Below, piece by piece: positions 17,449-28,377 of a stretch of DNA of 37,594 nt. The position numbers were made by a program, and so were the translations under genes. This stretch comes from a virus. Location of the stretch: the IMG/VR virus record IMGVR_UViG_3300021961_000260, positions 1 through 37,594 of that record; one strand, given 5' to 3'. Numbering within the stretch: position 1 is the stretch's first letter; each line of letters starts with the position of its first letter. Below the pieces are notes generated by a model. The model had not been told where the DNA came from, searched no databases, and saw nothing but the letters and a program-made list of their open reading frames with translations.

Positions 17449-18435
17449 TTAAAGGCTGTAAACAACCGTATTATCCGAACTTTTTTCGTTTTTAGTTTTG
17501 TTTATTGCTTGACGTTTGCTGCTGACTACACTAAATTCTAGTGTTTTTTGGTATCCTAATTGATTATGGTATCTCTCTACGTCTATGTTCATATCACGAT
17601 TACCCACTTTACCCACATTCCAGCAACTTACCCCATTACTATTAAGTTTTCCTAGACATAAATGAATAAGAGTTTTTAAAAAGTGTTCTGCCCAGTCATC
17701 GTATGTATTGTAATTGTTGATACTTTGTGTAGATTCCTTGCTATAAACTTCAATGTCATAATAGGGCGGACTGGTAAGAACTAAATCTACTTTTGGGATA
17801 TCATAATTTTCAAGTTTTAATGCATCATCACAAATCAACGTAACTTGATCTTCTATCTTTAGATATTTTGCTAGATTAGTTAGATTTTGATACGTGGTTG
17901 TGTTGGGCTCAAAAGCAATATACCTTGCCCCGCTAGCAACTGTGCCTAACATACGACCGCCCCAGCCAGCACAAGGATCAAGTACAAGTTTTGGCTTATA
18001 TCTATCACATATCATTTTGGCCATTTGTGGCCTATACATCGTATTTTTAGTTAGCCCGTAACAAAAATAGATGCCGCGTTTTAATTCACTTAAGTAAGGC
18101 GTGCTATGACTTTTACGATTCCAACGTAATACTTTTTCTAAGTTATTTGCTTTCCACAATTGATTAAAACTTTTACCTTTCATTTCTATATCATAAAAAT
18201 TATGGAAGAAATGCTCGCAAAGTTTCACACCTATACGTGAAGTACTATTGATATTGTTACTAGATGTTGTCCAATTACATAACTGTTTCCATGCATCTAG
18301 TAATTGTTTATCGTCATATGCAGGGAGAAAACTTACAGATTCAAGTTCTTGAGCCAGTGTGGGTAATATAAGTTCAAAGTCAGTATCAGATAAACGTCTA
18401 ATACTATGCCTTACGTTAAGATAGTTTTCAATCAT
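17449..18435 (-). CDS. DNA methyltransferase (N6-adenine or N4-cytosine)
   Basis: Transfers a methyl group from S-adenosylmethionine to an exocyclic amino group in DNA. Motif I (SAM binding) is VLDPCAGWGGR at about residues 151-161, with the acidic ribose-binding residue in AFEPN at 174-178. The catalytic motif IV is LTSPPYYDIE at 220-229. The order I then IV, without a long insert, suits a gamma-like class. The 150 residues before motif I may hold target recognition. Its ATG overlaps the stop of the upstream gene by 4 nt (ATGA). That gene encodes a PD-(D/E)XK-like protein, so the pair could be a restriction-modification system; alternatively it is an orphan methylase protecting phage DNA. 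Confidence 0.9.
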   Translation of the reverse strand: MIENYLNVRHSIRRLSDTDFELILPTLAQELESVSFLPAYDDKQLLDAWKQLCNWTTSSNNINSTSRIGVKLCEHFFHNFYDIEMKGKSFNQLWKANNLEKVLRWNRKSHSTPYLSELKRGIYFCYGLTKNTMYRPQMAKMICDRYKPKLVLDPCAGWGGRMLGTVASGARYIAFEPNTTTYQNLTNLAKYLKIEDQVTLICDDALKLENYDIPKVDLVLTSPPYYDIEVYSKESTQSINNYNTYDDWAEHFLKTLIHLCLGKLNSNGVSCWNVGKVGNRDMNIDVERYHNQLGYQKTLEFSVVSSKRQAINKTKNEKSSDNTVVYSL

Positions 18436-19067
18436 TTTTGCTGTATACGTTTTATTAATGCCTTATACATGGGTTTAGACATATATTTTTGTGCATCTTG
18501 GTGTAGATATTGTATATCTAAATCAGGACAATCTATCCATTGCTTATACCCAAAATTGGGACTACAACGTGTGTGCTTTTTTGTCTTTTTTCTATTCTTT
18601 TCTGCAACTTCTTGTATGCGTGAAAGCGCCCAAGGTACCATATAACTAAAGGGAAATCGTACAAGAAATACTAACTTTCCGTCTGAAAATCCAGAAACAC
18701 ACATATCCCAACTTTGCTTTTTTACTACCCCATCTTCTGTAAGATCATTAAATGGGTTTCCCCCTTTAAGTTTGTCAGCATACATAGGTTTGACTTCTAT
18801 ATATACGTTTTTGACTACATCAAACCCATCTGCGCCCTGTTTAATTTTCAATGAATCTACATTCATAAGCCGTAAACTTATTTCTTCGCATATGGTTTTA
18901 GCATTTTTATCCTGAAGATACTTGAGTAATAGTCTTTGATAGCCCGGAGTTTGCTGCTGAAATAGGCGCCCGCTACCTACAAGGTAATCTATTAAAATGT
19001 CTATATAATCATCGCTAAATTTAGGTAAATTCGTGACTATTTGTGTGATACTATCATTGATATACAT
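18432..19067 (-). CDS. PD-(D/E)XK-like protein, candidate restriction endonuclease
   Basis: No family name recognised, but residues 79-93 (ADGFDVVKNVYIEVK) give the PD-(D/E)XK core D83-x7-E91-x-K93 on two predicted strands, as in type II restriction enzymes and other nucleases. An upstream acidic helix (CEEISLRL, E61/E62) and a QSWDM segment (118-122) after the core could complete the fold. 211 residues is a usual size for a type II endonuclease. Its stop overlaps the methyltransferase ATG (ATGA), the tight coupling seen in many R-M pairs. Other readings are a Vsr-like or DNA-repair nuclease, or a nuclease against competing phage DNA. Confidence 0.7.
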   Translation of the reverse strand: MYINDSITQIVTNLPKFSDDYIDILIDYLVGSGRLFQQQTPGYQRLLLKYLQDKNAKTICEEISLRLMNVDSLKIKQGADGFDVVKNVYIEVKPMYADKLKGGNPFNDLTEDGVVKKQSWDMCVSGFSDGKLVFLVRFPFSYMVPWALSRIQEVAEKNRKKTKKHTRCSPNFGYKQWIDCPDLDIQYLHQDAQKYMSKPMYKALIKRIQQK

Positions 19068-19521: not shown

Positions 19522-20289
19522 ATGGACTTTGAACAAACATATAAAATATTGATAGAAAATGGGTATTATTTTGGTTCAAATTATGATATATTAAATCAAT
19601 ATGAATGTAATACTTTGCAGCATGCCATTGATAATGATATTAATAATAACGGATTAAGAAAAAAATTCCATGATGATTATTTGAAAAAAACTAGAAACGT
19701 TTGGGAATACTTTATGCAAGCAAACTCAACCGATGAACGTTTCCAAAGTTATAATTCAGGACGAAACTTACTAAGTTATGATGATCGTGAAGAAAGAAAA
19801 AAATATTTAGATGAAAATAATATCCCTGTAATGCAGCAATGGTTTTTTACTCCAGTTGATGTATATTCGCATATCATAGATCCTAATGTATTACAAAACA
19901 GAATAAAAGAATTTATTTCAAAAATATATCTTGTGCCGGCAAACAAGGTTGACGTTGAACCAATTAAAATAAGTTTTTATGATAAAGATGATTTCCTTAA
20001 ACCACACGTTGATGGTAAAAATAAAGGAAGATTGTGTAGTTTAATCATTTATTTGTCTGACCCAACAACATATAGTTTAGATAAAGGCGGTAATTTTTTA
20101 TTACATTCTAAAAATATAAAATATGATAATCAGTTAGAATTTAATGATATGGAGGTAAGTTTAAATCCAACTTATCCAAATTATGTAATACTTGATTTTA
20201 CAAAAAATAATTTATACCACGCCGTACAACCTTGTACTACAAGATTCAGCAGATATGCAATTCTTTGTTTTCCTACCTTAAAGGAATAA
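19522..20289 (+). CDS. 2OG-Fe(II) oxygenase, prolyl-4-hydroxylase-like
   Basis: Predicted Fe(II)/2-oxoglutarate-dependent dioxygenase. The double-stranded beta-helix core shows the facial triad: His162 and Asp164 in LKPHVDGKNKGR, then SLIIYLS and GGNFLL, and His233 in LYHAVQP with Arg244 (or Arg241) for 2-oxoglutarate binding in TTRFSRYAILCF. 255 residues is usual. Substrate unknown; protein side chains, DNA bases and small metabolites are all possible in phages. It begins on the base after the stop of the late gene before it, so expression is probably late. Its stop directly abuts the stop of the convergent deformylase gene. Confidence 0.88.
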   Translation: MDFEQTYKILIENGYYFGSNYDILNQYECNTLQHAIDNDINNNGLRKKFHDDYLKKTRNVWEYFMQANSTDERFQSYNSGRNLLSYDDREERKKYLDENNIPVMQQWFFTPVDVYSHIIDPNVLQNRIKEFISKIYLVPANKVDVEPIKISFYDKDDFLKPHVDGKNKGRLCSLIIYLSDPTTYSLDKGGNFLLHSKNIKYDNQLEFNDMEVSLNPTYPNYVILDFTKNNLYHAVQPCTTRFSRYAILCFPTLKE

Positions 20290-20775
20290 TTATTTCTTTT
20301 TTTTCTTTCTACGTCTTTTCGCAAGGTCAAGACTTAACTTTGCTGTACGTGTATCAAAACAAATACCATCTAAATGATCGCGCTCATGTTGATAGATGCG
20401 ACCAAATAATCCGGGAAAGTCTTTTATGATTTCTTGTCCTAGAGCATTATAATATTTTGCCTTGATAGACTCATAACGTTTGACATGTAGCCAAAGATCA
20501 GGGAAACTTAAGCATCCTTCTTGCTCCATATACTCGCCTAAACCTTCAATTATTTCTGGATTGATACAAACAAATAATCTATCACTATTACCCATAATGA
20601 ATAAACGTTTCATTACACCAAGTTGGGGTGCCGCTAATCCTATACCGTTATTTTCAATCATGACCTTAGTCATGGCTGTTACTAATTCGCTAGGATCACC
20701 GTCAACAGTAAAATCCCACGGCGTGCAAACTTCTCTAAGTTTTGGATCATTCTCATTAAGTAATGTTAGATTCAT
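20290..20775 (-). CDS. def: Peptide deformylase
   Basis: Removes the formyl group from the N-terminal Met of new proteins. All three family motifs are intact: GIGLAAPQ (44-51), EGCLS (86-90, metal ligand Cys88) and HERDH (130-134, metal ligands His130 and His134, catalytic Glu131). At 161 residues it is near the length of bacterial enzymes, so less reduced than some cyanophage copies. It ends in an unusual basic tail, KRRRKKKKK. Phage deformylases are known from aquatic T4-like phages. It is the last gene of the ten-gene leftward operon and overlaps the gene before it by 20 nt. Confidence 0.96.
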   Translation of the reverse strand: MNLTLLNENDPKLREVCTPWDFTVDGDPSELVTAMTKVMIENNGIGLAAPQLGVMKRLFIMGNSDRLFVCINPEIIEGLGEYMEQEGCLSFPDLWLHVKRYESIKAKYYNALGQEIIKDFPGLFGRIYQHERDHLDGICFDTRTAKLSLDLAKRRRKKKKK

Positions 20776-22139: not shown

Positions 22140-22419
22140 ATTTCAATACATATACCATAAATTTTTTTTCGTCAGTTACAATAAACTCATCTGTATATTG
22201 TAAATCCTCAGTCAACACAGGCTTGAATCCATGTGTGTTTGCTAGCCAGTCTATAAATGCATAATGATCAGTGCTAGTATTTTCTGTTGAGAATTCTCCG
22301 CGCAATTTTCTAAGATTATTCCAATAATCCCAACGTGATAAACGTCTTTCAACTCTATCATCGTCATCATCGTAATCTTGAAAGTCTTTAGGGACGTTTA
22401 CCATTGCTTGTCCAAACAT
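22132..22419 (-). CDS. Small acidic hypothetical protein, 95 aa
   Basis: Highly acidic near the start (KDFQDYDDDDDRVERR) and ending in two predicted strands (YTDEFIVTDEKKFMVYVLKYG). A HGFKPVLTEDLQYTDEFIV stretch suggests a small single-domain regulator, but no family is recognised. Two starts are possible: 22419 (32-nt overlap with the oxygenase) or 22404 (MVNVPKDF). Neither has a Shine-Dalgarno, so I keep the longer reading. The exonuclease start lies within its last codons. Confidence 0.7.
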   Translation of the reverse strand: MFGQAMVNVPKDFQDYDDDDDRVERRLSRWDYWNNLRKLRGEFSTENTSTDHYAFIDWLANTHGFKPVLTEDLQYTDEFIVTDEKKFMVYVLKYG

Positions 22420-23098
22420 TATCTAATTCAGCAACATCGTTTATTATACTCTTATCTAGATAGTTTAGCAATAGAGCAGGTCTAGGTTCATCACTATTAT
22501 TGGGCATACTGCTATGAAGGACCCTACAATTATATAATAGCAAACTACCTTTGGGCATATCATGTTGCTTACAGTTATCTAAGAACCAATTATCAAATGA
22601 TCCAGTATAGCATTTATTGATATCAAAATCTCGTTTTTGACTAAACGGAACCAATCCTGTCGCAGCATTTTCTTTGGTAACATCATCTAATGTTATGATA
22701 CATTGTATTCCCAATAATCTCTTATCAAAGTTCCATTTACTAAATCTATGCGGGGTGTCAACGTGAGGGCTTACCCATTTGCTGTGCGGATTTATTGTCA
22801 CAGTATCGGTCGCATAAAAGTTTAAAGTAGGAAAGTTATTTTGAATTACAGGGTCAACAAGTTTTTTAATCTTTTCAAACTCTTTATATCCGTCAACAGT
22901 CTGACTCCACCATACACTGATATCTTCTAGGTTCTTGATATCATCACGTTCAGCATAGACTTTCTTACTACTGCTAGCGCGGACCGGATATAAGTCTTTA
23001 AGGATTTTTTTGTAGTCTGCGACTAAAAGTGAAGGAATAAATCCGGGAAATATTTTGTAACCTTCTCCCTGTTCTAGTATGTCTTTTAATTCTCTCAT
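22388..23098 (-). CDS. 2OG-Fe(II) oxygenase, phytanoyl-CoA dioxygenase (PhyH)-like
   Basis: Predicted non-haem iron dioxygenase. Facial triad: His112 and Asp114 in WVSPHVDTPHRF, and His195 in LLYNCRVLHSSMPNNS. Arg206 in EPRPALLLNYLD should bind 2-oxoglutarate. The GLVPFSQKRD segment (148-157) matches the G.l.vipGSH.. loop of PhyH proteins. At 236 residues it is single-domain. Its substrate is unknown. It sits in the early/middle replication-associated operon, unlike the late oxygenase at 19522. It overlaps the preceding gene by 4 nt. Confidence 0.87.
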   Translation of the reverse strand: MRELKDILEQGEGYKIFPGFIPSLLVADYKKILKDLYPVRASSSKKVYAERDDIKNLEDISVWWSQTVDGYKEFEKIKKLVDPVIQNNFPTLNFYATDTVTINPHSKWVSPHVDTPHRFSKWNFDKRLLGIQCIITLDDVTKENAATGLVPFSQKRDFDINKCYTGSFDNWFLDNCKQHDMPKGSLLLYNCRVLHSSMPNNSDEPRPALLLNYLDKSIINDVAELDNVWTSNGKRP

Positions 23099-27726: not shown

Positions 27727-28377
27727 TTATTTAAGAAATCGGCTTTGTACATCTTCAACGTTTGTGATTAATGTTTGTGTGGGATAGTCGTTAATTGTTC
27801 CGGTAGGCCATGTATTAAAAGCTAAAGTATATCGGGTATGAGTATCTCTGTTAGGTTTCATCTGATGAGTTACATCACTTTCCCAAATAATCAATCTTCC
27901 CTTTTTTGGTACTGAGTTATATTCATAACGTTGCTTTTTCAGAACAGGACCAAATAGGTAATATAATTTTTCATAAAATGGGTCCGATATTGAAAATGAT
28001 GTTAATGTTTTTGAACTATCAGTCATGTAAAGCAGTCCACTAAAAATTGAAAAACTATGATGGTGTGATTGGGATGATTCTGCAAAATTTGATCTAGTCA
28101 TCCAAGCATCATGTATAGACAATTTAACCTTATTAAAATGTATATCAGACACTTCGTCCACACATTTCTCTAACTCATCAAATAATTCTTTATGATAAAT
28201 TGGTGTTTGATTTTTGTTATGAATTGCCTTAGAAGGTATGGCATTAGGATTTAGCGAATTAGGTACATCATCTATATCCAATTCTTGTTTTAAAATATTT
28301 TGTAAAGCTTCATCGACTAAATCAGGACTAATAAAAAACTCATAAAAATTTCTATTTGCAAAGGGAATTTTATTCAT
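27727..28377 (-). CDS. 2OG-Fe(II) oxygenase (Oxy_5-like)
   Basis: Third predicted 2-oxoglutarate/iron dioxygenase of the window. The iron site is read as the histidine cluster at 105-107 (SQSHHHSFSIFSGLLYM), His171 in ESDVTHQMKPN and Arg182 in THTRYTLAFNTWPTG. The HxD Asp of the usual triad is replaced by His or Ser, as in some members of this branch where H-x-H is found. The N-terminal NRNFYEFFISPDLVDE and the IHDAWMTR strand match what I recall of cyanophage putative 2OG oxygenases. Late box 5 nt before the ATG, so expression is expected late. A terminator-like hairpin of the upstream gene lies at 28404-28435. Confidence 0.8.
   Translation of the reverse strand: MNKIPFANRNFYEFFISPDLVDEALQNILKQELDIDDVPNSLNPNAIPSKAIHNKNQTPIYHKELFDELEKCVDEVSDIHFNKVKLSIHDAWMTRSNFAESSQSHHHSFSIFSGLLYMTDSSKTLTSFSISDPFYEKLYYLFGPVLKKQRYEYNSVPKKGRLIIWESDVTHQMKPNRDTHTRYTLAFNTWPTGTINDYPTQTLITNVEDVQSRFLK

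Follow-up and report, generated by a model that had tools for sequence, protein, structure and literature searches.

A putative restriction-modification pair with a PvuII-like nuclease in T4-like phages, and frequent absence of TCGA from the sampled DNA of relatives whose nuclease has no methylase neighbor

The window analyzed here, a 37.6-kb virus fragment (IMG/VR record), raises the question of whether a phage may encode its own restriction-modification (R-M) system and, if so, which DNA such a system would attack. An earlier note had pointed to a methylase ORF and a 211-residue ORF joined by an ATGA overlap, and both are present on the minus strand as claimed (Table 1). The overlap is expected, from its sequence, to couple translation of the nuclease and the methylase. 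Near the pair lie genes for a DnaB-like helicase, a TOPRIM primase-like protein, a UvsW-like helicase, and a RecA-family protein, together with a weak gp32 match; this neighborhood is consistent with a T4-like phage. The window also holds three 2OG-Fe(II)/PhyH oxygenase-like genes and a peptide deformylase gene.

Table 1. Features of the window (positions in nucleotides of the whole stretch)
Feature	Position	Strand	Basis
Amino-methyltransferase (predicted; N6-adenine or N4-cytosine), 328 aa	17449..18435	-	ORF; PF01555 just under cut-off; conserved motifs
PD-(D/E)XK endonuclease (predicted), PvuII-like, 211 aa, family N1	18432..19067	-	ORF; remote phrog_3210 match; conservation; AlphaFold2; Foldseek
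ATGA overlap, nuclease stop/methylase start	18432..18435	-	sequence
Nuclease active-site stretch (predicted)	18789..18830	-	arithmetic from ORF start 19067 and invariant residues
Codon K93	18791-18789	-	
Codon E91	18797-18795	-	
Codon D80	18830-18828	-	
Codon E61, upstream of the stretch	18887-18885	-	
2OG-Fe(II)/PhyH oxygenase-like gene	19522-20289	+	
Peptide deformylase gene	20290-20775	-	
2OG-Fe(II)/PhyH oxygenase-like gene	22388-23098	-	
2OG-Fe(II)/PhyH oxygenase-like gene	27727-28377	-	

By sequence, the only family found for the 211-residue protein was phrog_3210 (E = 7.7e-8), with nothing significant in Pfam, NCBIfam, PADLOC, PDB, or a phage tblastn search. The earlier note had read D83-x7-E91-x-K93 as a PD-(D/E)XK pattern. 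The letters are present and E91 and K93 are borne out, being invariant in a 19-sequence alignment together with E61, K76, G78, D80, F106, D108, and T110; E61, D80, E91, and K93 are also invariant across 38 homologues with or without an adjacent methylase. Position 83, by contrast, varies among D, N, C, H, and S, and the catalytic Asp is predicted to be D80. Homologues lacking D83, which the note had named as evidence against its proposal, do therefore exist, but only through the choice of the wrong Asp.

Structure prediction and a fold search, proposed earlier as a check, pointed the same way. The AlphaFold2 model of the window nuclease (pLDDT 89.8, pTM 0.84) has a predicted PD-(D/E)XK fold closest to R.PvuII, which accounted for all 12 Foldseek matches below E = 0.001 in the PDB (best E = 1.9e-6), followed by Eco15I, DpnI, and NhoI; the viral fold search (BFVD) gave no match below E = 0.001. 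The resemblance to R.PvuII is one of fold only, as PDB searches with the single sequence or a profile gave no match to that enzyme at E ≤ 1. Model and conservation together identify the protein as a predicted PD-(D/E)XK nuclease, with an alpha/beta core and a conserved catalytic set. It is 17–39% identical to the other aligned proteins of its family (N1). An N1 relative (L021) matches a PADLOC type II restriction endonuclease model at 3e-5, whereas the window nuclease itself matched no such model. NhoI, Eco15I, and DpnI come next after R.PvuII in the fold search, and the window enzyme could, like them, be a modification-dependent nuclease whose neighboring methylase serves another purpose. We consider this extremely unlikely, since a methylase in the same operon would mark the phage's own DNA for cutting and since the bare site is missing precisely in genomes without an adjacent methylase (see below).

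The window methylase matches PF01555 just under the cut-off (E = 1.4e-5; 25.6 bits against 26.7), and a homologue 72% identical to it (L003) scores above the cut-off at 33.5 bits. Motif I (DPCAGWGGR) and motif IV (TSPPYY), both read correctly in the earlier note, show little or no variation across 17 homologues, and by these two motifs the protein is a predicted amino-methyltransferase (N6-methyladenine or N4-methylcytosine). The alignment of the 17 homologues contains a short variable stretch near residues 53–62 and no strongly variable block of the kind expected of a swapped target-recognition domain. When genome contigs were searched with the methylase, only distant cellular methylases were returned, with 33% identity for the best full-length match.

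A methylase-profile scan of IMG/VR viral contigs yielded 69 loci, 61 of which had an adjacent nuclease-family ORF. Specifically, the ORF directly upstream of the methylase belonged to family N0 (phrog_6927) at 26 loci, to the window's family N1 at 21, and to a third family, N2, at 12; L022 and L053 provided extra N1 members, with the nuclease of L053 lying downstream of the methylase. No nuclease was recognized at six of the 69 loci (L045, L061, L062, L072, L074, and L075). In L037 (2748-3992) and L038 (1-408), a second methylase (FSPPYY) lies upstream of the window-type methylase, in the nuclease's place. No BLAST link was found among the three nuclease families, and phrog_3210 (N1) and phrog_6927 are both listed without function; the N0 homologue of S-BM3 is annotated as a "restriction endonuclease." N0 and N1 carry an E...D...ExK pattern and N2 an E...D...K pattern, and PADLOC type II restriction endonuclease models match N0 at 2e-10 and N2 at 2.5e-4. 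The AlphaFold2 model of N2 is confident (pLDDT 88.6) and had no fold match below E = 0.001, its weak best match being I-Ssp6803I, a PD-(D/E)XK homing enzyme (E = 0.02). N2 may tentatively be placed among PD-(D/E)XK enzymes on the strength of its motif and of weak resemblance to I-Ssp6803I and EcoRV.

Counted as distinct proteins, 33 of 50 N0, 17 of 50 N1, and 18 of 20 N2 nucleases have a recognized adjacent methylase; one further N1 nuclease has an SPPY neighbor, and three others are truncated at contig ends. Three or more families of methylase serve as partners (the window type, one of ~250 aa with a DLPY motif, and one of ~300 aa with a DPPY motif), and the nuclease comes first almost everywhere among the pairs. 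The nuclease-first order, which the earlier note had considered potentially risky, is thus the rule in this group, and pairs that had been called unusual in T4-like phages occur commonly in environmental contigs of such phages. The recurrence of tightly coupled homologous nuclease and methylase genes in dozens of viral contigs indicates that the window's pair is not a product of chance. On a 60-tip methylase tree, the nuclease partner label needs 15 changes, and well-supported sister methylases have unlike nucleases (L041 with N1 and L181 with N2; L035 with N0 and L036 with N2). Judged from these gene arrangements, nuclease partners have been swapped repeatedly, and the pairing is recurrent and modular. 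The linked endonuclease and methylase genes that define the layout of type II R-M systems are present, and the earlier assignment of the window's pair to this layout is supported by the predicted PD-(D/E)XK fold and by nuclease homologues lying repeatedly beside a methylase.

Many of the nuclease homologues lack a methylase neighbor that we could recognize, and we call these "solitary" in that sense. S-SSM4 and S-RIM14 (N0) and ACG-2014d (N1), all cultured T4-like cyanophages, encode the nuclease after the UvsW-like helicase gene, and P-SSM7, also in culture, carries N0 followed by two methylases. The same site between clamp-loader genes holds N0 or N1 (L109 and L118 vs L202). N0 and N1 also occupy the same intergenic positions after the UvsW-like helicase gene in L080, L081, and L083. 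Several solitary-nuclease genomes encode other methylases elsewhere, so a missing adjacent methylase does not equal missing protection by methylation. Solitary copies lie between core genes, as the homing endonucleases of T4 do, and with N0 and N1 replacing each other at these positions and a homing enzyme as the weak best fold match of N2, the nuclease might be a freestanding homing endonuclease beside which the methylase lies by accident. Homing enzymes recognize long sites, however, and such an enzyme would not strip a tetranucleotide from 40–80 kb of DNA (see below); repeated pairing in the same orientation with three methylase families and an N1 fold closest to R.PvuII likewise make this reading very improbable.

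The tetranucleotide in question, TCGA, first arose among many words in an exploratory k-mer scan of short loci; longer samples, compared with nuclease-free genomes, then served to test it, followed by further contigs, and 20–80 kb were sampled per genome, and expected counts came from a second-order Markov model. All 10 nuclease-free cyanophages were near normal, with observed/expected counts ranging from 33/47 to 117/145. In comparison, no TCGA was found in the solitary N0 genomes S-SSM4 (0/149), S-SSM6b (0/60), and G001 (0/58), in the solitary N1 genomes ACG-2014d (0/132), G002 (0/61), G003 (0/31), G004 (0/42), and G008 (0/86), or in the solitary N2 genomes G012 (0/66) and G013 (0/19), and it was present in all 21 methylase-paired genomes. 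Overall, TCGA was absent from the sampled DNA of 10 of 12 solitary genomes and 0 of 31 others (Fisher p = 3.4e-8), a p value that ignores phylogeny in a set where the solitary genomes represent perhaps six or seven lineages and most N1 cases are one clade. An SPPY methylase lies just upstream of the G008 nuclease, and this genome might better count as paired, which would make the count 9 of 11. Among 2,728 word classes of length 4–6, TCGA alone separates the groups (next best p = 0.1), in a test that left out one species with a divergent N0 (S-RIM14, S-ShM2, and S-SSM2). Fourteen of 14 further solitary contigs, sampled at 10–40 kb each, likewise held 0 TCGA against a total of ~351 expected, although this set was not fully blind, as their short loci or those of close relatives had partly been seen earlier.

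The two solitary-nuclease genomes that do hold TCGA are ACG-2014f (128/151), the nuclease of which retains its D...ExK residues, and G011 (40/145); TCGA also occurs in L202 (4/9) and L118 (6/9), two short loci with a solitary nuclease. In ACG-2014f, a short ORF (L084, 3016-3420) that lies just upstream of the solitary N0 gene shows gamma-methylase-like motifs (FTP, NSAGCGNFL), with no NPPY motif seen. In the divergent-N0 species, TCGA is normal and TTAA is missing instead (0/280 in S-RIM14, 0/128 in S-ShM2, and 0/127 in S-SSM2); these nucleases are ~33% identical to the N0 of L050, which indicates that specificity can change at about that level of identity. Taken together, nuclease-bearing phages seem either to methylate TCGA or to purge it. 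Among other words, GATC is absent from G012 and G014 (0/132 each) and CATG from G012 (0/145), and among the cultured cyanophages sampled, only ACG-2014f contains CCGG, whether or not the nuclease is present.

That phages exposed to host restriction become depleted in the restricted sites is well established (PMC12707154), and the absence of CCGG from nearly all sampled Kyanoviridae whatever their nuclease would agree with such a pressure. Host restriction might thus have removed TCGA as well, with the nuclease gene merely correlated. It is a poor explanation, and in our view an improbable one, because isolates from the same strain differ according to nuclease carriage: on WH8109, TCGA counts are 0/60 in S-SSM6b vs 117/145 in Syn19 and 38/56 in S-SSM7, and on WH8102, TTAA counts are 0 in S-SSM2 and S-ShM2 vs 172/202 in S-SSM5. 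Moreover, contigs whose site profiles differ strongly (such as G002 and G012) show the pattern as well.

Genomes with a window-type pair are depleted in TCGA and still contain it: their median observed/expected ratio is 0.28, against a median of 0.76 for the nuclease-free cyanophages (p = 2e-5), in a comparison where the controls are marine and where the window and most paired contigs may come from phages of other hosts. GATC ranks next in this comparison, with a weaker signal (p = 0.003), and two genomes with the methylase and no recognized nuclease have TCGA ratios of 0.64 and 0.90. The window itself contains 13 TCGA vs 46 expected. Its nearest N1 relatives are all methylase-paired, so assignment of TCGA to the window draws on its relatives, on the methylase family that they share with it, and on the depletion of the word; on these grounds, the window's pair is probably specific for TCGA. 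As in type II R-M systems, nuclease and methylase may recognize one and the same short site, a question on which the absence or depletion of TCGA in relatives bears indirectly. The same R-M pair could act on a different short palindrome in the window, for instance one containing AGCT, as does the CAGCTG site of R.PvuII, its closest fold. AGCT is the most depleted tetramer of the window (15 vs 102 expected), and the divergent N0 subgroup goes with TTAA. Yet AGCT is also low in nuclease-free cyanophages (median observed/expected 0.33) and comes close to expectation in some genomes that share the methylase family (224/276 in G009), and across the paired set it is TCGA that is depleted, which leaves another palindrome unlikely.

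We therefore favor, with a probability of roughly 0.7, a type II-like R-M pair that attacks unprotected DNA through a nuclease whose site is most likely TCGA, with the host chromosome as the likeliest target. According to this proposal, the PvuII-like nuclease would cut a short palindrome, most likely TCGA, and the co-translated methylase would mark the same site in phage DNA. DNA without the mark, most likely that of the host chromosome and incidentally that of rival phages, would be attacked, and relatives without an adjacent methylase would be protected by the site being missing from their own DNA.

The proposed system shares with R.PvuII/M.PvuII its closest solved nuclease fold and a methylase with an SPPY motif IV, a feature of many N4-cytosine enzymes; besides the lack of detectable sequence similarity, it differs in its probable site, TCGA as opposed to CAGCTG. 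Chloroviruses (PBCV-1 and NY-2A) also encode an adjacent methylase and site-specific endonuclease, typically with 2- to 4-bp sites, and these enzymes are presumed to cause the degradation of host DNA that occurs early in infection (PMC7019647). Whereas chloroviruses have eukaryotic algae as hosts and carry the nuclease in their particles, the pairs described here belong to T4-like phages, draw on interchangeable nuclease families, and show apparent site loss where no methylase adjoins the nuclease. In its proposed role, the nuclease would resemble T4 denA/denB in degrading host DNA and sparing that of the phage. T4 marks its own DNA with modified cytosine.

T4-like cyanophages lack denA, ndd, and denB, and according to a 2010 review (PMC2984593) they either are poorer at degrading host DNA or, as one possibility, do so by a route that has yet to be described. 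We see evenly balanced odds for the broader proposal that interchangeable, convergent TCGA endonucleases of T4-like phages degrade unprotected (host) genomes, with self-protection by an adjacent methylase or complete TCGA loss, and that they constitute an undescribed route of host DNA degradation in cyanomyoviruses without denA/denB. A literature search on cyanophage TCGA avoidance and on phage-encoded restriction endonucleases or R-M systems found no paper, with narrow wording and few subscription journals covered, and the novelty of the phage pair and of TCGA avoidance is provisional. The nucleases provide a widespread, concrete candidate for host DNA degradation in cyanomyoviruses, with a predicted recognition sequence, and the cultured phages S-SSM4, ACG-2014d, P-SSM7, and S-RIM14 are suited to testing it. 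The results further suggest that a phage's own nuclease, and not host restriction alone, can determine which palindromes its genome lacks; if so, the reading of site avoidance would change.
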